A stretch of 64,000 nucleotides of DNA from Methanomassiliicoccus sp. GTDB lineage: Archaea; Thermoplasmatota; Thermoplasmata; Methanomassiliicoccales; Methanomassiliicoccaceae. The stretch spans positions 62,001 through 126,000 of the forward strand of contig JAEILR010000007.1 of NCBI GenBank assembly GCA_016109435.1, in the 5' to 3' direction. How positions within the stretch are numbered: position 1 is the first letter of the stretch; the number at the start of each line of letters is the position of its first letter. The notes beneath the pieces were generated by a model. That model searched no databases and was not told the origin of the DNA. It saw nothing but the letters and a program-made list of their open reading frames with translations. This document shows, one piece after another, positions 5,225 to 44,373 of the stretch. The position numbers and the translations under genes were made by a program.

Positions 5225-5336
5225 TGGTCCCGACTCCCGGATTTGAACCGGGGGCCTGCTGATATCGGCGGCTGAGGACCGGAAAACCGGGTACCCACTA
5301 CAGTCAGCCGCTCTAGCCAGACTGAGCTAAGTCGGG
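5225..5336 (-). tRNA. tRNA-Tyr (GTA) with a 34-nt intron
   Basis: The acceptor stem CCCGACT/AGTCGGG, discriminator A and an encoded CCA (5225-5227) are all present. The anticodon stem GCTGA/TCAGC encloses the loop CTGTAGA with anticodon GTA. The loop is interrupted after position 37 by a 34-nt insertion at 5264-5297, the canonical archaeal site for a bulge-helix-bulge intron. The T-arm reads CCGGTTCAAATCCGG. Splicing needs the archaeal tRNA endonuclease, which is not in this window. Confidence 0.95.
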
Positions 5337-5536: not shown

Positions 5537-5788
5537 ATGGTGATGAACATGGAAGGACCAGAGCTAGAGAAGGTGACGATCCGCCTTCCGGAACGATACG
5601 TTCGGGCACTGGACTTCTTGGTCAAGGTAGAGGACTTCCCCTCCCGTTCGGAAGCGATCCGGGCGGCCATAAGGGATCTCATCTACGAGCGGGTCGACCT
5701 TGCAATGGACAAGGTCAAGAAGATGGAGGAGGCAGAAAAGACACTCGCGGCCATGGAACAGTTCGAGAACGAATACTTGAGGAAGTAA
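5537..5788 (+). CDS. Ribbon-helix-helix (CopG/NikR-type) transcriptional regulator
   Basis: About 83 residues. The core EKVTIRLPERYVRALDFLV followed by FPSRSEAIRAAIRDL is a textbook RHH DNA-binding fold: one beta strand, then helix-turn-helix with the SRSEAIR signature. The C-terminal 35 residues are predicted coiled coil. Such proteins bind DNA as dimers of dimers. An upstream GTG (5498) would add 13 residues but lies at the predicted transcription start. ATG codons at 5537, 5543 and 5549 are all possible. There is no NikR metal-sensing domain. The target is unknown; the gene stands alone beside tRNA-Tyr. Confidence 0.82.
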   Translation: MVMNMEGPELEKVTIRLPERYVRALDFLVKVEDFPSRSEAIRAAIRDLIYERVDLAMDKVKKMEEAEKTLAAMEQFENEYLRK

Positions 5789-5850
5789 TTGGGCTGTACG
5801 ATGGGATGGGATGCACGTCAAACTCTAGCCTGCCTTTAACCTCCCCCAAT

Positions 5851-5865
5851 CTTTTTTTCTTCTTT
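5851..5865 (+). terminator. T-run terminator after the RHH gene
   Basis: The stretch CTTTTTTTCTTCTTT lies about 60 bases after the RHH stop codon. Archaeal RNA polymerase can terminate on such runs without a hairpin. Confidence 0.45.
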
Positions 5866-24409: not shown

Positions 24410-24943
24410 CCAACCCTTTCTGCCCCAAGATTTTTTTATAATTATTTATAATAAATCTGAGCTTTTTAGTTTGAAATAAACGATTCTTCGATCGGATACA
24501 GCAGATTATTGTTCCGTGCCGACGATGCATTGGCGGAACTCTCGGCGCCGTGGCGATACGATGGACATGCCTCCGCCAGACACGCTGAGCGAGAAGACCG
24601 CAGATCTGACCGGTCTCAATGAACTGGTCAAGCAGGAAAGCTCATAGCGATCATGGACCGGCGCAATTCTCTAGAATGGGTAGTGGAAGCCTATCGATAT
24701 GTGTGGAGAAGGAGAGAATTGGGCCTATGTTCATCGGGATGGCCCCATATGTGGGCGATATGGCCCAATGGGCCTTCGCATAATGGATGAGTGAGCTACT
24801 GATCCTGGGCCGATGGCTCCTAAGGTGGCCGTGCCGTACCTAACGGCCGACTAATGCAGCCTGACGAATCACCAGAAGGCAAATATTACTTATCAAGTGG
24901 GCATCTCATATTCCAAATCGATCGAGCCAAATGGAGATGGTGG
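24410..24943. other. 534-bp intergenic region; possible gene remnant
   Basis: The left end holds the AT-rich promoter of the SPFH gene (TTTTTTTATAATTATTTATAATAAA near 24430-24455). A 40-codon frame at 24525-24647 has no recognised family and no clear ribosome-binding site; it may be a decayed gene. Around 24723-24773 the word ATGGCCC and its near inverse recur, able to form small hairpins. A TATA-like AAATATTAC near 24880 probably serves the dehydrogenase at 24944. Confidence 0.4.
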
Positions 24944-25903
24944 ATGAAAGCTGGTGTATGGACCAGTTATGGACCTCCAGATGTCCTACAACAACAAGAT
25001 CTGGAAAGACCTACCCCGAAGACGAACGAGGTTTTGGTCAAGGTCCGTGCCGCATCCATTAACTCATGGGATTGGGAGCTTCTTAGCGGTAGGGGGCATA
25101 TCAATCTGGGAGGCCGGTTGAAGCCCCCTCATAAGATACTTGGATGTGACATAGCTGGAACGGTTGAAGATGTGGGCAGAAAGGTCACAAGCTTTCGACC
25201 CGGTGATGAGGTTTTCGGAGACATCTCCCGAGACGGCTGGGGCGGTTTCGCAGAATTCGTCTGTGCCAGAGAAACGTCGTTATCGCTGAAAAGGAGTAGC
25301 CTGTCGTTCGAACAAGCAGCAGCAATACCTCAAGCAGGAGGTCTTGCTTTACAGGGCCTGAGGGACAAAGGAAAGATCCGATCTGGTCAACAGGTTTTGA
25401 TAAACGGTGCAGGAGGGGGCGTGGGCACCTTCGCGGTCCAGCTTGCGAAATCGTACGGAGCAGAAGTGACGGGTGTGGACAGGGTGGAGAAACTGGACAT
25501 GCTTCTTTCAATAGGCGCGGACCATGTTATCGATTATGGTGCAGAAGATTTCACCAGGATGGGACGGGAGTACGACCTGATCATCGATATTGTATCCCAT
25601 CGATCGGTCTTTGAATACAAGCGTGCGTTGGCTCCCAAAGGCATCTGCGTTCTCATTGGGGGTTCGGGAGGCGCGGTCTTTCAGTCCCTGCTCCTCGGCC
25701 CGTGGGCCCTCGGGAAACGGAAGGTAACATTACTTGTCTACAAACCTAATCCTCTTGACCTTACCCTGCTCTCCGACGCCGTAGAATCTGGAAAGGTCGC
25801 GCCGGTCATCGACAAGAGATATCCCCTAAGCGATGTGGCTGAAGCGTTCCGATATTATGCAGAGGGCAATGTTAAAGGAAAGATAATTATCGCCATTCAA
25901 TGA
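24944..25903 (+). CDS. Medium-chain dehydrogenase/reductase, zinc-independent quinone oxidoreductase-like (copy 1)
   Basis: A 319-residue MDR protein. The GroES-like catalytic domain covers residues 1-120. The nucleotide fold has NGAGGGVGTFAVQLAKSYGAEVTGVD at about 146-171, an NAD(P)H-binding AxxGxxG-type loop. The catalytic-zinc and structural-zinc cysteines of alcohol dehydrogenases are absent, so it probably reduces activated alkenes or quinones with NADPH. The start at 24944 follows GGTGG; upstream in-frame codons give non-homologous sequence. It is clearly similar to the gene at 31293. Its base composition is less GC-rich than core genes, suggesting acquisition. It is convergent with the Bat-type regulator. 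Confidence 0.87.
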   Translation: MKAGVWTSYGPPDVLQQQDLERPTPKTNEVLVKVRAASINSWDWELLSGRGHINLGGRLKPPHKILGCDIAGTVEDVGRKVTSFRPGDEVFGDISRDGWGGFAEFVCARETSLSLKRSSLSFEQAAAIPQAGGLALQGLRDKGKIRSGQQVLINGAGGGVGTFAVQLAKSYGAEVTGVDRVEKLDMLLSIGADHVIDYGAEDFTRMGREYDLIIDIVSHRSVFEYKRALAPKGICVLIGGSGGAVFQSLLLGPWALGKRKVTLLVYKPNPLDLTLLSDAVESGKVAPVIDKRYPLSDVAEAFRYYAEGNVKGKIIIAIQ

Positions 25904-25965
25904 AATGATCTCAGAAAGATCGAGTTGATCCAGCCTTCGTAATATCTTCGGAGCAGGTGCTCGTT

Positions 25966-26634
25966 CTATTTGTTCAGTTCCGGAGAGCCAGCCAATATTT
26001 CATTTATGATCCTTCTTTCTGCCTTCCTCAGATGCTCGATGAGGGTCGGTTTGCTGATGCTCACCTTCTCCGCCAATTTTTCACTGCTGATCATCCTGGG
26101 GACGTCGTAGTAGCCATGCTTGTAGGCGGCGGCCATTACTTCCCGCTGCTTATCGGTCAGCAAGGTAAGGAGGTCCTTCTTCTCGTAGGTCGACTGTTTG
26201 AAGGTCATCTTGACAACCTTACCTATGTGGGCTTTCACCACTTCAACGAACCTCGCCATGTCCCTCTGACTGCTGATAAAGCTGACAATGATCCGGTCTT
26301 CAGATATCAGGCTGGGGGCAGTGTAGATGAGGTTTAGCTCCAAGCCCTTGAACCTTTCATTGGCCTCATCCGATTCGTGTCCCAGAACCAAGCAAATATG
26401 TTTGTCGCCCTCTGACCTGATCACACTGAGGATGTCCATGTTGCCGATGGAAGTAAGCTCATCGATCGAAACACCCTCCTTCAGGATGCACTCGATAAGA
26501 TCGACATATAGCCCTTTCTCGTGGTCCATCTTCAGGACCTCTAGGACCTCGTAGGAGTGGATGTGAGTGAACAGCGACCGTTGAGCTTCTCTAGTGGTCT
26601 CATAGGGTTCTATCTCGACGATCACTTTCCGCAT
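25966..26634 (-). CDS. Bat-type helix-turn-helix regulator (HTH_10), copy 1
   Basis: A 222-residue regulator. The N-terminal 150 residues form a predicted alpha/beta sensing domain (EIEPYETTREAQRSL... SIGNMDILSVIRSEGDKHICLV). The C-terminus is the HTH_10 domain of bacterio-opsin-activator-like proteins (LTDKQREVMAAAYKHGYYD, then ISSEKLAEKVSISKPTLIEHLRKAERRI). I chose the ATG at 26634 over 26640 because it aligns with the start of the paralogue at 29706 and makes the distance to a shared upstream word identical (see findings). It is divergent from a DUF4386-type membrane protein. The ligand is unknown. Confidence 0.87.
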   Translation of the reverse strand: MRKVIVEIEPYETTREAQRSLFTHIHSYEVLEVLKMDHEKGLYVDLIECILKEGVSIDELTSIGNMDILSVIRSEGDKHICLVLGHESDEANERFKGLELNLIYTAPSLISEDRIIVSFISSQRDMARFVEVVKAHIGKVVKMTFKQSTYEKKDLLTLLTDKQREVMAAAYKHGYYDVPRMISSEKLAEKVSISKPTLIEHLRKAERRIINEILAGSPELNK

Positions 26635-26663
26635 CGGCATATGGGCATGATGATGGTAAATAG

Positions 26664-26671
26664 TATATATA
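26664..26671. promoter_or_regulatory. Symmetric TATATATA element between divergent genes
   Basis: TATATATA is self-complementary and sits between the regulator (start 26634, minus) and the membrane protein gene (start 26750, plus), so it may serve both. For the right-hand gene it predicts transcription starting near 26693, at the shared ATGGCTCAA word. Confidence 0.5.
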
Positions 26672-26684
26672 GTGCCATATATGA

Positions 26685-26693
26685 ATGGCTCAA
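26685..26693 (+). promoter_or_regulatory. Shared 9-bp word ATGGCTCAA (operator candidate, copy 1)
   Basis: This word starts exactly 51 bases from the first base of the regulator ATG at 26634. The same word occurs 51 bases from the ATG of the paralogous regulator (29757-29765). Confidence 0.45.
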
Positions 26694-26749
26694 AAACTAA
26701 CTATTTTTCTCACGCTCCGTCATCTCAGGAATATGACCTGAGTGATGAC

Positions 26750-27469
26750 ATGACAGAAAGATGCCACAGAAAGACCGCAGCGATCGTGGGGGCGTTGTTC
26801 ATTATTGCCACCGCAGCTTCCTTGGCAAGCGCGCCCTTCTTAGGGTCGGCCCTTGAGGGTTCCGATTATATCCTCAGGCTGTCCGCTACCGGGAACAATA
26901 TGGTGATAGCATCAGTGCTCGAGATCATCCTGGCCATCTCAGTGGTCGCCATCGGGGTTCTAATGCTGCCTATCCTCAGAAAACGTGTCGATGGCCTCGG
27001 AACGGCATATGCTGGGATTAGGCTTGTGGAAGCGATCTTCATCGTCGCCAGCGCAGTTTCTCTCCTTTATATGCTGTCTGCAGGGCAGGACTATGCAGCT
27101 GGACGACTGGATGAAACAAGAGCCTTATCCATGGGCGCGTCTTTGATCTCGTTACGCGAATGGTCTCTGATATTCGGGACGCTGATATTCCTGGGGATTG
27201 GAGGACTGACACTAAACTACGGACTCTATCGATCAAAGCTAGTGCCACGGTGGTTATCAACGTGGGGCATAGTGGGAGGTGTTTGCATCCTGATATATGG
27301 AGCAATGGGGGTGTTTGGTACCGACACAAGCTCGTTTGACGCCACCACTCTCTTGGCTCTTCCGATCGCGGTCCAGGAGATGGTGTTCGCATCATGGCTC
27401 ATCGTCAAGGGTTTCGACACCCCAACTAATGTTGATGAGAAGAGAGCTGAGATGCTCAGTCATACATAG
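26750..27469 (+). CDS. DUF4386 family integral membrane protein
   Basis: A 239-residue protein with six or seven predicted transmembrane helices, beginning MTERCHRKTAAIVGALFIIATAASL and matching the DUF4386 pattern (N-terminal RKTA-IVG-LFI, and a central YAGIRLVEAIFIV helix). Function of the family is unknown. The frame opens at a GTG at 26672, but that lies at or before the expected transcription start; the ATG at 26750 gives the family N-terminus. It is divergently paired with a Bat-type regulator and followed by a strong hairpin terminator. Confidence 0.82.
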   Translation: MTERCHRKTAAIVGALFIIATAASLASAPFLGSALEGSDYILRLSATGNNMVIASVLEIILAISVVAIGVLMLPILRKRVDGLGTAYAGIRLVEAIFIVASAVSLLYMLSAGQDYAAGRLDETRALSMGASLISLREWSLIFGTLIFLGIGGLTLNYGLYRSKLVPRWLSTWGIVGGVCILIYGAMGVFGTDTSSFDATTLLALPIAVQEMVFASWLIVKGFDTPTNVDEKRAEMLSHT

Positions 27470-27494
27470 GGGGTGAAACCCCCATCCTTTTTTA
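27469..27494 (+). terminator. Hairpin and T-run terminator after the DUF4386 gene
   Basis: GGGGG, a TGAAA loop and CCCCC (27469-27483) are followed by ATCCTTTTTTAT. The hairpin begins at the last base of the stop codon. Confidence 0.65.
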
Positions 27495-27821
27495 TCAAGT
27501 TGAGGGAAGTTCAGATGGGGCGGCCATATTCAATAGCGCACGAAAAAGGCCCTATTGATCCAAAGTTCGAGATATCTGGATATGGTTTGTGGTAGGATTG
27601 CCCGAAGTCACAACATCATCCTGGCCAGACGGACGATTCCAAGAAATTATTATGCAGGTCTCACAGGCCATCGGGGAAACTCTCTGACCCGACCTTATGG
27701 GGGCAAAAATGAAAAATTTCTAAAAAACGAAAATAGCTCTCCCATTTGTACCTGTTGAAAGCGTCCAATCTGCCAGGACGTATGGACAAAGTGGAATTTG
27801 AACCTCATTCCATCGTAAAGG
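27495..27821. other. Intergenic region without recognisable gene
   Basis: About 330 bases of relatively AT-rich sequence with A-runs near 27705-27735. A 67-codon frame at 27555-27758 lacks a ribosome-binding site and family resemblance. It could be decayed DNA; I see no RNA gene. Confidence 0.4.
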
Positions 27822-28910
27822 CTACCAGCCATTCTCCATCTTTCTGACGAAACCGCGGTAGAACGTCCGGAAGTCGTCACAGTTCATCAGCTCCCTCATG
27901 ATGGCGCTTACATTGGGCCCGTACCTGAGAGGCTTGACTAACATGGCGAGCTCCTCGTTGGTCTTCCATCTCAGCCGATTGAACACATCCAAGAACGTAC
28001 TGTCGGCAAGAGGAGAACGCTCCCATTTCAATTGGTAATCTTCAATATTCCCATGGTTAATCGCGTCTGCGGCCATGCGTCCGGCGGCGAGCGAGTTACG
28101 GATGCCGCCAAAGGTGATCGGATTGGCCTGGCAGGCGGCATCCCCGACAAGGCATGCGCCACCGTCCACGATCTTATCTGGACGGCCAATGGGTATGGCC
28201 CGCCTGTGCGTGTCCACGGCATCCCTCGGCGCCTCGTCAGTTCCTTCGGGAAAGCCCACCTTGGTATGCCTGCCGGAGGGGAACTCCCATCGATACTTAC
28301 CCATGTATCTCTGGTCGAAAGTGAAGTGGAGTTCGTTCTCCATCGGTCTATCGACCAGGTACTGGATCACCCGCATGTAAGTAGATGGCTCGACGTCAAA
28401 AACCATCCTTCTGATGATTGAATGTGCCCCATCCGCGCCGACAAGGTACCTACACGAGAACGCTCCCTCGGAGCTTTCCACGACATAGCCCCCGTTGGTT
28501 CGCCGCGCCCTCGATACCGTTCCGTTCACCATCTCTCCGCCGGATGAGACGAACGGCTTTCGTAAGCACGCTATGAGCTTGCCTCGGTCGATGATCGAGC
28601 CATTGATGTCCGATGAGAGCGTTATCCCGTCTGGCCAGTGCTCCACGGCCTTGGTCACGGCGTTCCTTTGCAGGTCTGCGCGTTCTAAGCCTGCTTCAGC
28701 GAGCCCCCGGCGGCTGATGCCTTCGCCGCACATCTGGTTGTACCTGTTGAATTTACCATCATCCAGTTTTTCTATCATTAGGGCACCGTCGCTCAAATGA
28801 TCGAGATCTAGATGTCCCGCGACCGATGAGCCTCCTGGCCCGCCACCGACCACGATGACGCTATAGTGCTTCACAGCCTCCTCCCGGCAGACGCTCAACG
28901 GTTTCAGCAT
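27822..28910 (-). CDS. FAD-dependent oxidoreductase, geranylgeranyl reductase family
   Basis: A 362-residue flavoprotein. The dinucleotide-binding motif VIVVGGGPGGSSVAGHL is near residues 17-33, the FAD-pyrophosphate motif is DGGACLVGDAACQANPITFGGI in the last third, and the family YNQMCGEGIS segment surrounds a conserved Cys. Members saturate the isoprenoid chains of archaeal lipids or reduce polyprenols. An upstream ATG at 28958 is in frame, but the ATG at 28910 gives a closer family N-terminus. Its location among dehydrogenases rather than lipid genes means the substrate need not be a lipid. Confidence 0.84.
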   Translation of the reverse strand: MLKPLSVCREEAVKHYSVIVVGGGPGGSSVAGHLDLDHLSDGALMIEKLDDGKFNRYNQMCGEGISRRGLAEAGLERADLQRNAVTKAVEHWPDGITLSSDINGSIIDRGKLIACLRKPFVSSGGEMVNGTVSRARRTNGGYVVESSEGAFSCRYLVGADGAHSIIRRMVFDVEPSTYMRVIQYLVDRPMENELHFTFDQRYMGKYRWEFPSGRHTKVGFPEGTDEAPRDAVDTHRRAIPIGRPDKIVDGGACLVGDAACQANPITFGGIRNSLAAGRMAADAINHGNIEDYQLKWERSPLADSTFLDVFNRLRWKTNEELAMLVKPLRYGPNVSAIMRELMNCDDFRTFYRGFVRKMENGW

Positions 28911-29052
28911 GATTCTTGATGGTAAAATGTTTCGCTCCCGCACTTTATTAAGTTGCATCGGGATAGAAAAGATGGTTGGTCTGCCCGGACCCGTTACCCG
29001 TTCAGCCAGTAAACTGAAAATCTAAAGTCATCCTAGCATTTCTTTCCCGGAG

Positions 29053-29706
29053 TCATTGGTACCCCGTCATCACCTCCCGGAGTATCCGACCCTCGGCCTT
29101 CCTCATGTGCTGCAACAGGGTGGGCTTGCTAATATTGACCTTATGGCTTAGTGCTTTGCTGCTGATCCTTTTAGGATATTCATAGTAGCCGTTCTTGAAT
29201 GCTGCCACCATCACATCTCTCTGTTTTTCGGTCAGAACATTGAGTATGTCAGCCTTATGGTATGCGGCCCTCCGGAAGCTCATCTTCCGTATCGTGCCGA
29301 CGTTCTTCATCATATCAACAAAATTCGACAGGTTCTCCTGCTCTCCCATCATGCTGATTATGAACTTTTCAGGTGAGATGATTGTTGGTATCGTGTGGAC
29401 CAGACCCAAGTCGGAATCCTGGAACTGTCCCTTGGACCCTTCAGGCTCCGTGTATCTGATGAGGCAAGTATGCTTGCTGTCGACAGACTTCAGAACGCTC
29501 AGGATCTCCATGTTGCCTACTGTACTGATGTTGTGGATTGATGCACCCTCTTTCAGAGTGAACTCCATGATCTCGATGCATATGCCTTCCTGGTAGTCCA
29601 TCTTCAGGGTTTCGAGTATTCCGTAGGAACGGACATGGGTGAAGGTCTCGGCCATTTCCTCTTTCACTGTCTCGAAAGGCTCGATCTCCAGGGTGAGCGT
29701 TCTCAT
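29053..29706 (-). CDS. Bat-type helix-turn-helix regulator (HTH_10), copy 2
   Basis: A 217-residue paralogue of the regulator at 25966. The same N-terminal pattern (MRTLTLEIEPFE; STVGNMEILSVLKS) and the same HTH_10 end (LTEKQRDVMVAAFKNGYYE; ISSKALSHKVNISKPTLLQHMRKAEGRI) are visible. The frame continues upstream through the divergent gene, but the ATG at 29706 matches the paralogue's start. It is divergent from the small DUF6326-like membrane protein and two dehydrogenases, which it probably controls. Confidence 0.87.
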   Translation of the reverse strand: MRTLTLEIEPFETVKEEMAETFTHVRSYGILETLKMDYQEGICIEIMEFTLKEGASIHNISTVGNMEILSVLKSVDSKHTCLIRYTEPEGSKGQFQDSDLGLVHTIPTIISPEKFIISMMGEQENLSNFVDMMKNVGTIRKMSFRRAAYHKADILNVLTEKQRDVMVAAFKNGYYEYPKRISSKALSHKVNISKPTLLQHMRKAEGRILREVMTGYQ

Positions 29707-29756
29707 GTGACCATATTCAAAATTACTTTTTCCATTATTTAAACTATAATACATGT

Positions 29757-29765
29757 ATGGCTCAA
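29757..29765 (+). promoter_or_regulatory. Shared 9-bp word ATGGCTCAA (operator candidate, copy 2)
   Basis: The word begins 51 bases from the regulator ATG at 29706, just after an ACTATAATA box (29743-29751) that would drive the rightward genes. Confidence 0.45.
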
Positions 29766-29820
29766 TTTGCTTGTAGTTTTTCGAATATTCAATAATTGGC
29801 GAAGATCGCCGGGTGATAAA

Positions 29821-30321
29821 GTGGAACATGATCGGACGATGCGAACTGGCATATATGAGAAGAAGAACATGAAGGGCCAAGGCGTGAGGTCCGCGCCGGT
29901 CTTTGAGGATCAGAGGATTCCTACGCAGGTCAAGTTGGCGGGACTGTGGGCCACGGTGATGTTCATGTACATCTACGTGGATATTATAGGATTCTACCAA
30001 CCGGGATTGATCGAGGGGATACTGGCAGGTAGAGTGTGGGTTTTCGAGATCACCGGAACCTGGATGCTGTTGAGCTTGATGCTGATGACGGCCCCGATCA
30101 TAATGGTCCTCCTGTCCCTGGCGCTGCCGGCGAAGCCAAACCGGTATGCGAACATCGGCCTGGGAGTTTTCCTTGTTCTGCTCGCGCTTGGGATGGCAAT
30201 GGGGGAGATCAATGCCTATTATCTGTACGGTTCGGCCGTGGAGATCGTTCTTCTGTCCCTGATCGTATGGGTAGCGTGGAAGTGGCCTCGGGCCTCCCCA
30301 TGCGCGACGGCAGGGAACTGA
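29821..30321 (+). CDS. Small integral membrane protein (DUF6326-like)
   Basis: A 166-residue protein with four predicted helices (about 45-65, 85-105, 115-132 and 140-155) after a charged N-terminus. The motif KLAGLWATVMFMYIYVDIIGFYQPG resembles the DUF6326 family, whose function is unknown. The GTG at 29821 follows GGTGAT with a short spacer; an ATG at 29839 is possible but lacks such a site. It lies between the divergent Bat-type regulator and the dehydrogenase at 30361, 39 bases from the latter, probably in one transcript. Confidence 0.75.
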   Translation: MEHDRTMRTGIYEKKNMKGQGVRSAPVFEDQRIPTQVKLAGLWATVMFMYIYVDIIGFYQPGLIEGILAGRVWVFEITGTWMLLSLMLMTAPIIMVLLSLALPAKPNRYANIGLGVFLVLLALGMAMGEINAYYLYGSAVEIVLLSLIVWVAWKWPRASPCATAGN

Positions 30322-30360
30322 GATGGCTTCGACCATGAGATCGGAAACGAGGGGGCTTTC

Positions 30361-31278
30361 ATGAAAGCCATCGTGGTTACCGGTAGCGGACCGCCAGAGG
30401 TTCTGGAGCTGAGGGAAGTGGAGAAACCGTCCCCCCGTGACAACGAGATGCTCGTCAGGGTCCACGCTTCGACGGTGACCTTCGGGGATGCCATCTCAAG
30501 GAGGATGCCCAGAATAGTAATGGGCCCGATGACAGCCCTTATGGGCTACAAGCTGAAGAGGATCGCTGGCCATGAGCTTGCAGGGATCGTTGAGGCCGTG
30601 GGCAAGGATATCAGGTCGTTCCGGGAGGGAGACCGTGTCTTCGGGACGACAACTGGATTGAGGTTCGGCGCAAACGCTGAATTTGTCTGCATACCCGAGA
30701 GGGGAAGGAATATGGTGGGCATGAAACCATCCAACATATCCTTCAGAGAGGCGGCCGCCATTCCCATCGGGGGGATGACCGCCCTGCAGATACTCCGGTC
30801 GGGGCGCATCAAGGAGGGAGATAAGGTGCTCATCTACGGTGCGTCCGGTTCCGTGGGCACCTATGCGGTGCAGCTGGCGAAGTACTTCGGGGCTCATGTG
30901 GTGGGGGTCTGCAGTGGTAAGAATCTCAATCTTGTGGGGTCCATCGGAGCGGATGAGGTGATAGATTACACCAAAAAAGATTTCATAAAGACCGGTGAAA
31001 CCTATGACATCATCTTCGATACCGTTCGTAAGCTCAAGAGATCGGGATGCAAGAGGTCCCTGGGGAAGGACGGTATCTTCCTATCGACATGGGCCCTCAC
31101 AAAGGAATCGAACGACGACCTCAACTTTCTAAAGGAGCTCGCGGGAGCAGGAAAGATACGACCGATCATCGATAGAACTTATCCGTTGGACGGTGTGGTG
31201 GAGGCCCACAGGTATGTCGACCAAGGTCACAAAAGAGGCAATGTGGTTATAGCAGTGGTAGGTGATTATAATGTCTAA
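30361..31278 (+). CDS. Medium-chain dehydrogenase/reductase, zinc-independent (copy 2)
   Basis: A 305-residue MDR protein. The GroES-like domain contains GHELAGIVEAVG (about 62-73). The cofactor loop is YGASGSVGTYAVQLAKYFGAHVVGV at about 160-184. Zinc-ligand cysteines of classical alcohol dehydrogenases are missing, so NADPH-dependent enone or quinone reduction is likely. It is more distant from the other two copies than they are from each other. Its stop is 14 bases before the next dehydrogenase, making a probable operon with 29821 and 31293. Confidence 0.87.
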   Translation: MKAIVVTGSGPPEVLELREVEKPSPRDNEMLVRVHASTVTFGDAISRRMPRIVMGPMTALMGYKLKRIAGHELAGIVEAVGKDIRSFREGDRVFGTTTGLRFGANAEFVCIPERGRNMVGMKPSNISFREAAAIPIGGMTALQILRSGRIKEGDKVLIYGASGSVGTYAVQLAKYFGAHVVGVCSGKNLNLVGSIGADEVIDYTKKDFIKTGETYDIIFDTVRKLKRSGCKRSLGKDGIFLSTWALTKESNDDLNFLKELAGAGKIRPIIDRTYPLDGVVEAHRYVDQGHKRGNVVIAVVGDYNV

Positions 31279-31292
31279 TTTACCAACGTACC

Positions 31293-32276
31293 ATGAAAGC
31301 TATCGTATGCGACAGATACGGCCGGCCCGACACTCTCCGGATCGAGGATGTGGAGAGGCCGGTCCCCCTGGACGACCAGGTACTGGTTAGGGTCCATACT
31401 TCGTCGCTCAACGCGGCCGATGCTGAGATACTGAGCGGTGCATTCTCGGCCAGGATCAGCGGTCCATTAAAACCACGCCACAGGATACCTGGATCGGATG
31501 TCGGAGGGCGGGTCGAGGAGGTAGGAAAGAACGTCAAGCAATTCAAAAAAGGCGATGCGGTCTTCGGAGACCTGTTCACGTACGGCTTCGGCGCTTTTGC
31601 AGAGTATGTGGCCGTACCTGAACACGCGCTGATGAAGAAACCGGATAGCATTTCCTTCAAAGATGCCGCCACCCTCCCCCAGGCGGCCAAGATCGCCCTT
31701 CAGGGTTTACGCGGAAAACGACCTCTCATGAAGGGGCAAAAGGTACTGGTGAACGGGGCGGGCGGAGGGATGGGCACGTTCGCCGTGCAGATCGCCAAAT
31801 ATTACGGGGCAGAAGTTACGGGGGTGGACAGCGCTAGGAAGCTCGGTATGCTTCGCGCCGTCGGCGCCGATCATGTCATCGATTTCGCTCAGGAGGATTG
31901 CACAAGAGGCGAGGAGAGATATGATCTCATCCTAGACACGGCCTCTCAGAGGTCTATCTTCGATTACAGGCGCGTCATGGCACCCCACGGCATCTTCGTG
32001 CTGGTGGGCGGCTCGAGATATGCCATATTCCAGGCGATGCTCTTGGGGCCATTGGTTTCCGTTGCCAGCAGGAAGAAGATGGGCATCAACCCGATGAAAG
32101 TGGACAACAAGAGGGACCTGAAGTTCCTGCTCGAGCTGATCGAAAAGGGAAAGCTCCAGCCGGTCATCGACAGATGCATCTCCCTCGAGGAGGTTCCGGA
32201 GGCCCTTATGGATCTGTCAAAAGGACTCGTCAATGGCAAAGTGGTTATAGAAATCCAACATGGTGGCGTTATCTGA
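31293..32276 (+). CDS. Medium-chain dehydrogenase/reductase, zinc-independent (copy 3)
   Basis: A 327-residue MDR protein closely resembling the one at 24944: both share the KILG/RIPGSD-type segment, PQAxxxALQGLRxK, NGAGGGxGTFAVQ and ADHVID. The cofactor loop is at about 151-175. Catalytic zinc ligands are absent. Last gene of the presumed unit with the DUF6326-like protein and copy 2. Copies 1 and 3 may be an ancient duplication of the whole regulator-dehydrogenase module. Confidence 0.87.
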   Translation: MKAIVCDRYGRPDTLRIEDVERPVPLDDQVLVRVHTSSLNAADAEILSGAFSARISGPLKPRHRIPGSDVGGRVEEVGKNVKQFKKGDAVFGDLFTYGFGAFAEYVAVPEHALMKKPDSISFKDAATLPQAAKIALQGLRGKRPLMKGQKVLVNGAGGGMGTFAVQIAKYYGAEVTGVDSARKLGMLRAVGADHVIDFAQEDCTRGEERYDLILDTASQRSIFDYRRVMAPHGIFVLVGGSRYAIFQAMLLGPLVSVASRKKMGINPMKVDNKRDLKFLLELIEKGKLQPVIDRCISLEEVPEALMDLSKGLVNGKVVIEIQHGGVI

Positions 32277-32388
32277 ATGGCCATCAGTGTGGACTCGGTA
32301 TGCACAAAGAATAATAGACTCCTTTCTCAGGAAATCAAATTTTCAGATAAGAAAAAGATCGTAACTCCTGGAAAAAAGTTGAAGTGAA

Positions 32389-32466
32389 TGGTGGGTCTGC
32401 CCGAATTTGAATCGGGGTCTAAGGCTCCCAAAGCCCCAAGGATGGACCAAGCTACCCCACAGACCC
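32389..32466 (-). tRNA. tRNA-Pro (TGG)
   Basis: Acceptor GGGTCTG/CAGACCC with discriminator A and encoded CCA at 32389-32391. The anticodon loop TTTGGGA gives TGG. The T-arm reads CCCGATTCAAATTCGGG. There is no intron. Confidence 0.94.
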
Positions 32467-44250: not shown

Positions 44251-44373
44251 GGCTGACAGCGCTCCACGGTTCCCGCGGGCTCGCGCACCGCAGTACAGCG
44301 TGGAACGTTGGCGGGCTTAACTTCCGGGTTCGAATGGGACCGGGTGTATCCCCGCCGCTATGGCCGTCACACC
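44251..44373 (-). rRNA. rrf: 5S ribosomal RNA
   Basis: The minus strand carries the universal 5S core: GGCCATAGCGGCGGGG at the 5' side, the loop B/C region CACCCGGTCCCATTCGAACC, then CGGAAGTTAAGCCCGCC, and the GCGTGGAA/GAACCGTGGAGCG arms toward the 3' side. A TATA box (TTTTATACG) lies about 25 bases before the 5' end and a T-run (CTTTTTATC) follows the 3' end, so the gene is transcribed alone. Ends are estimated to within a few bases. No 16S or 23S gene is adjacent. Confidence 0.95.

Follow-up and report, generated by a model that had tools for sequence, protein, structure and literature searches.

Two paralogous regulator–reductase cassettes beside a tRNA-Pro gene in Methanomassiliicoccus sp., one of them enclosed by tRNA-end copies

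The tRNA islands listed by Islander must each contain an integrase (PMC4383910). Element B, the subject of this work, lies in a 64,000-nt stretch of Methanomassiliicoccus sp. (contig JAEILR010000007.1, positions 62,001 to 126,000; this whole stretch is called the window). Like the Islander islands it has an intact tRNA gene, a displaced 3′ fragment of that gene, identically oriented, at the opposite end, cargo enclosed by the two and a low G+C, but it measures 3.4 kb, carries four cargo genes and has no integrase, and Islander would therefore not list it. Tycheposons and helper-dependent elements are small tRNA-linked cargo that may need others for their movement. Element B resembles tycheposons in being small tRNA-linked cargo, and differs from them in its archaeal host; it contains no mobility gene.

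The cargo of element B (cassette B) and the neighbouring cassette A also have described relatives. Their regulators, REG2 and REG1, carry an HTH_10 domain at the C-terminal end, as do Bat and the other HTH_10 regulators, but no PAS or GAF sensor domain was matched in their N-terminal part by Pfam at E 0.01, and their candidate operator is positioned 3′ of the TATA box of the target gene. The three oxidoreductases, MDR1-3, share their domains and the lack of a zinc-binding Cys with the MDR quinone/enone reductases, of which the chloroplast QOR homologue 5a3j, the strawberry ripening-induced protein 4ida and RTN4IP1 (2vn8) were the best PDB relatives of MDR1; they differ in falling under the cut-off for PIG3 and in being tied to DUF4386 or DUF6326 and a Bat-type regulator. 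In bacteria, a regulator is likewise divergent from the same small membrane proteins, namely AraC from DUF6326-MDR on Acaryochloris plasmids, where the MDR gene adjoins, and TetR from DUF4386 in Deinococcus and Streptomyces, but these regulators belong to other families. The individual parts are of known kinds; what appears new is their combination, together with the operator and a tRNA-bounded cassette that lacks an integrase. No report of these three was found in open-access full text, and no paper was found there for the term DUF4386.

The tRNA-Pro end copies and the blocks between them

The locus is probably a stack of acquired blocks beside tRNA-Pro, including two paralogous switch and reductase cassettes, of which B would have entered by site-specific recombination. 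The features, in window coordinates, are the following.

24941-25903, plus strand: MDR1, zinc-independent quinone/enone-reductase-like oxidoreductase of cassette A, convergent with REG1 (ADH_N and ADH_zinc_N_2, E 9e-25, Pfam)
25966-26640, minus strand: REG1, Bat-type HTH_10 regulator of cassette A (PF04967, E 1.3e-20); start probably 26634 (MRK start) or 26640
26664-26704, plus strand: promoter-operator A, with TATA box, dyad GCCAT-N6-ATGGC (26674-26689) and CTCAA tail
26750-27469, plus strand: DUF4386 multi-helix membrane protein of cassette A (PF14329, E 1e-34)
27590-27604, minus strand: possible degenerate tRNA-Pro 3′-end copy between cassette A and the FAD gene, weak (12/15)
27822-28965, minus strand: FAD block, separate from the cassettes, with a flavoprotein like those of the geranylgeranyl reductase superfamily (gene 27822-28958, likely start near 28870) and its promoter
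28972-28987, minus strand: displaced tRNA-Pro 3′-end fragment, att-like, left end of element B (15/16 identical to 32388-32403)
29053-29706, minus strand: REG2, Bat-type HTH_10 regulator of cassette B (PF04967, E 4.4e-19)
29736-29776, plus strand: promoter-operator B, TATTTAAACTATAATACATGTATGGCTCAATTTGCTTGTA (E 3e-11 in its own genome)
~29792-29815, plus strand: 5′-leader with putative hairpin GGCGA-AGA-TCGCC
29821-30321, plus strand: DUF6326 four-helix membrane protein of cassette B, GTG start (PF19851, E 5e-14)
30361-31278, plus strand: MDR2 oxidoreductase (ADH_zinc_N_2, E 2e-21)
31293-32276, plus strand: MDR3 oxidoreductase (ADH_zinc_N_2, E 1.6e-20)
32388-32466, minus strand: tRNA-Pro(TGG), right end of element B, with the intact attachment site at its 3′ end (32389-32403, plus 32388)

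Cassette A is thus laid out MDR1> <REG1 / DUF4386> and cassette B <REG2 / DUF6326> MDR2> MDR3>, the last three genes forming an apparent operon. Every gene named in an earlier sequence-only reading of this DNA was found with clear family matches. Its placing of an MDR gene near each regulator was also correct, but the MDR genes number three, not two.

The 15 nt at the 3′ end of tRNA-Pro, and one further nucleotide, were repeated at the left end on the same strand as the tRNA, and the two end copies enclosed exactly REG2, DUF6326, MDR2 and MDR3, with no integrase gene between the repeats. The same arrangement was found elsewhere (G and L numbers denote genomes and loci). In L019 (G040), the same four genes lie between tRNA-Val and an exact 15/15 copy of its 3′ end, and in L018 (G030) an exact 15/15 copy of the tRNA-Val end lies 151 bp from MDR3. 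Degenerate end copies occur on both sides in L016 (G004), which is beside the same tRNA-Pro, and the cassette copy of L021 is flanked by an imperfect direct repeat of 27 nt. The element stands on the tRNA 3′ side in the window, L016, L018 and L019, and in the listed loci every cassette gene or FAD gene that came within ~4 kb of a tRNA was on its 3′ side. The same tRNA-Pro and the same neighbour gene were present in five congeners, and in G001, G003 and G006 the tRNA-Pro and the next gene are present and the cassettes absent. The sequence comparisons therefore support well the reading of element B as a small mobile tRNA-gene insertion. Two independent insertion events are proven and no more, since the pairs L018/L019 and window/L016 each seem to descend from a single insertion.

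Cassette B might instead be the decayed remnant of a larger integrase-carrying island, its boundaries inherited from few insertions, and we regard this as a serious alternative, though somewhat less than an even one. Integrase loss after integration has been described in archaea (PMC8371274), the proven insertions come down to two events because the window and G004 share tRNA-Pro and L018 and L019 share tRNA-Val, and in G001 this tRNA-Pro has an integrase element beside it, with the integrase open reading frame ending at the base that adjoins the tRNA. Against this, a distance of 110-155 bp separates the same gene set from the 3′ end of the tRNA, or from its copy, in both groups, no integrase remnant was recognised in either group, and further short blocks without an integrase are present beside tRNAs. 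Where a relic of the G001 integrase was sought, between MDR3 and the tRNA, only the tRNA itself aligned well. PF00589 matches in the host genome were two, both on another contig. Integrase genes ending at tRNA 3′ ends were seen at L169:9566-10642 (tRNA-Pro, G001) and L252:10979-12148 (tRNA-Gly, host); these two integrase elements, which have similar neighbouring small open reading frames, are candidate autonomous helpers.

The FAD block has a different history. The sequence-only reading had counted the flavoprotein, as a geranylgeranyl reductase family member, within one system with both modules, and this did not hold. Its orthologues, 74-76% identical, occur in G001 and G006, both without cassettes, where they lie 3′ of tRNA-Leu; no FAD gene accompanies a cassette in any other cassette locus retrieved; and the DNA homology to the G001 copy, which covers the gene and its upstream region, ends at 28965, 7 nt before the tRNA fragment. 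The cassette-less orthologues and this homology end exclude the FAD gene as a cassette member. In the simplest history, suggested by these boundaries, the FAD block would have adjoined the tRNA-Pro end first and cassette B would then have been inserted between them. Since the protein scored 108.9 bits against TIGR02032 (geranylgeranyl reductase superfamily), under the cut-off of 158.8, it is taken as a relative of that superfamily only; its PDB match was 3oz2 (E 2e-9). A short flavodoxin gene is recurrent near cassettes (L053, L054, L058, L173 and L228) and adjoins the FAD orthologue in G006. As for cassette A, a tRNA boundary at 27590 was considered and rejected, the 12/15 match being too weak, with a ~5% chance in a 4.5-kb stretch.

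Recurrence and separate ancestry of the two cassettes

The gene association recurred in other genomes, across families. A whole-genome search placed cassette B at seven loci, spread over six other genomes of the order (G004, G030, G040 twice, G048, G060 and G050), and it appeared again among named contigs, including one further named metagenome-assembled genome (MAG). MDR3 orthologues (72-81%) retained the gene order; MDR2 is absent or relocated in some copies, its orthologues being 84% identical in G004, beside the same tRNA, and 77-78% in G040. REG2 orthologues at 75-82% identity were found in further loci; the contig of L017 starts at the DUF6326 gene, and its regulator is therefore outside the view. 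Cassette A recurred in G033 and G040 (about 67-82% identity), with MDR1 orthologues (82%) beside REG1, and more distantly in L054; REG1 orthologues reached 81/79% identity elsewhere, and DUF4386 orthologues were divergent from REG1 in L045, L046 and L054. A third related cassette (G030; L047) combines an MDR with a less closely related DUF4386 protein. The named database relatives of the window regulators came from Methanomassiliicoccales and other Thermoplasmata MAGs. Outside the order, in Thermoplasmatota, 7/10 DUF6326 loci adjoined an MDR gene, as did about half of the Thermoplasmatota DUF4386 loci. That the genes are chance neighbours, which arrived separately and whose adjacency is functionally meaningless, is therefore hardly credible: the FAD gene would fit, but the gene order recurs across families, and the DUF6326-MDR adjacency was met despite a background of ~1-11 such MDR matches per genome. 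Because AraC and TetR replace HTH_10 in the bacterial loci, the membrane protein and the MDR appear, from gene neighbourhoods, to be the stable core in archaea and bacteria, and the regulator the exchangeable part.

REG1 and REG2 are 45% identical. The regulator tree placed REG1 and REG2, each together with its orthologues, in separate clades, both supported at 100/100 and both spread across families. The module had been described as duplicated, and duplication in place is rejected by this tree, with which the MDR tree (MDR1 vs MDR3) agrees; two pre-existing paralogous cassettes therefore stand side by side, and by their phylogeny they are old and separately inherited. A single acquired reduction system, duplicated in place and including the FAD reductase with both modules, is accordingly improbable. 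It would account for the regulator family, MDR family and operator common to both modules, for the low G+C along the whole stretch, and for the flavodoxin beside the G006 FAD orthologue, which is of the type near some cassettes; the separate supported clades of the regulators and of MDR1 and MDR3 contradict it, as do the FAD orthologues in cassette-less congeners and the halt of the FAD homology at the tRNA fragment.

Both cassettes have probably been transferred between lineages, because their identity exceeds the benchmark across families and they are absent from most congeners. The benchmark protein was 69-74% identical within the genus and 49-51% identical to most of family f3, and the cassette proteins were 72-84% identical both within the genus and to family f3; the distribution of the cassettes is patchy. 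The G+C scan gave 0.47-0.57 over 24-33 kb vs 0.58-0.67 in the flanks, and GC3 was 0.63 in the cassette genes vs 0.78. An acquired segment of lower G+C than its surroundings, as the sequence-only reading had it, is borne out by these values, the tRNA boundaries, the congeners without cassettes and the identity above the benchmark. REG, DUF6326 and the operator were not found in IMG/VR viral carriers at the sensitivity used.

The shared promoter-operator element and the putative switch

The upstream word common to both modules, direct repeat D7 (26664-26693 and 29736-29765, 73% identity), turned out to belong to a real conserved regulatory element. Between regulator and partner gene, a 42-nt element was aligned without gaps across 19 loci, in the order TATWTAAACTA, TAYATGWAYGGCTCAA and TNCWWGTA, the last part being present in most loci. 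Site A is the full dyad GCCAT-N6-ATGGC and site B retains the right arm only. With matrices from whose training the whole clade of each scored site was omitted, the window sites ranked first and second at at least 38 bits, the next best scoring 10.9 and -0.4. The genome-wide search of the host (an archaeal assembly of 37 contigs and 2.23 Mb, of which the window is part), with both window sites included in the training set, returned two sites only, one per module (E 3e-11 and 2e-7; next 0.11), and it gave no further regulon members in the host genome. The operator is well supported by these comparisons, and its binding by the regulator is the likely reading. A sister group of HTH_10 regulators (L048, L049, L050, L051, L052 and L018:17964-18617) has a near-perfect GCCGT-N6-ACGGC at the equivalent promoter position, which is most likely the ancestral dyad form; several of these regulators are divergent from genes with MacB-type ABC-protein-like starts. 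In L055 (CP070751.1, Thermoplasmata bin33), two REGs, several MDRs, an ABC transporter and a CrtI-like flavoprotein occur together, and both REG genes are preceded by the shared operator. A putative leader hairpin, GGCGA-nnn-TCGCC, directly 5′ of the Shine-Dalgarno-like GGTGAT of the DUF6326 operon, is kept across cassette B loci and was not seen in cassettes A or C.

The loci L061 and L063 have operator-type sites before target genes without an adjacent REG, in the order TATA, dyad, gene. Because these sites precede genes without an adjacent regulator, the element may serve the target promoter, and the dyad would then sit between the TATA box and the start site. Repressors usually act in this interval, and a dyad there normally hinders transcription. 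In the mechanism that we favour, the HTH_10 regulator would bind the conserved dyad, which has a fixed position after the TATA box and ahead of the presumed start site of the membrane-protein operon. It would repress this operon until a hydrophobic electrophile appears; the MDRs would then use NAD(P)H to reduce the compound, an enone or quinone, and the membrane protein would assist at the membrane. Cassette B would have been inserted at the tRNA 3′ end by an integrase supplied in trans or since lost.

A more tentative view is that REG activates itself, the divergent operon or both, and that the element is mainly the bidirectional promoter of REG. The stand-alone sites of L061 and L063, with their TATA-dyad-target order and no adjacent REG, argue against this, as does the position of the dyad, which normally hinders transcription. 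Consistent with it, REG is a member of the HTH_10 family like Bat, the dyad is upstream of the TATA box when read toward REG, and bop regulation is known to involve an upstream activator sequence (PMC3184054).

Several points weigh against the combined reading of repressed, tRNA-inserted cassettes. Element B is without an integrase, so the evidence for its mobility consists of scars; cassette A is not bracketed by any tRNA fragment; and several cassette B copies have no tRNA within the flanking sequence examined. The transfer benchmark is a single gene, and the dyad of cassette B is imperfect, with 2/5 pairs. Bat itself is an activator.

The MDRs had ADH_N and ADH_zinc_N_2 domains, and at the position of Cys46 their translations read NSWD, TFGD and NAAD, the catalytic zinc Cys being absent, as in zinc-independent MDRs. 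Against NCBIfam quinone_pig3 (TIGR02824) they scored 166, 144 and 155 bits, all under the cut-off of 296.8, and they were the only above-cut-off PF13602 proteins in the host genome. In view of the solved relatives of MDR1, the regulated promoter and the membrane partner, a hydrophobic enone or quinone, reductively detoxified, is our best guess for the substrate, and the ligand may be of the same kind; the sequence-only reading had also proposed a polyprenyl substrate and a carrier or sensor role for the membrane proteins. The DUF6326 protein was predicted to form four long helices (pLDDT 71 overall); its fold search gave nothing significant, and the top match, NACHO/TMEM35A (E 1.3), was not used. 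No solved-structure relatives were found for DUF4386 or with the REG profile. The best Foldseek match of the REG N-terminal part was Thermoplasma Ta1207 (E 6e-4, low TM-score).

tRNA-end cargo without integrases

Downstream direct copies of tRNA ends were found at 10/19 tRNA loci vs 3/57 control scans. In the host genome, 7/33 tRNAs had end copies vs 0 in the reverse-strand control, the seven falling to five after a neighbouring tRNA and a low-complexity match were discounted. Other integrase-less cargo at tRNA ends comprised an SDR with a TetR, an AbiEii-like pair, an MFS gene, an ABC-like pair and a single small gene. In the host, tRNA-end copies surround short blocks without an integrase at L280 (G000:C23:100160, tRNA-Leu) and L277 (G000:C23:250037), which hold one small DUF1697-like gene and an ABC-transporter-like pair. 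At L225 (G456:C40), tRNA-Thr 5786-5859 has three downstream end copies, at ~+2.4, +4.8 and +5.4 kb, which surround MDR/DUF6326 genes in a layout resembling tRNA insertions stacked in tandem. Elsewhere in the window, a tRNA at 5228-5336 was called by Rfam and missed by ARAGORN in default mode, its 109-nt length suggesting an intron, and a 5S rRNA gene lies at 44251-44371, with no further Rfam-recognised rRNA within the window.

More speculatively, Thermoplasmatota may harbour dispersed cargo-only cassettes of 0.7-4 kb, stacked at tRNA 3′ ends, lacking an integrase of their own and moved in trans by resident tRNA-targeting integrases, whose cargo would include reductase switches, SDR with TetR, AbiEii-like pairs and transporters. 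If true, such cassettes would be the tRNA-anchored counterpart of integron cassettes. For the DUF4386 and DUF6326 families, the present locus provides a recurring enzymatic partner, the MDR reductases, together with a regulator whose candidate operator is defined; for the uncultured relatives of Methanomassiliicoccales, it points to regulated cassettes at tRNA ends that carry no integrase and are missed by integrase-based surveys.

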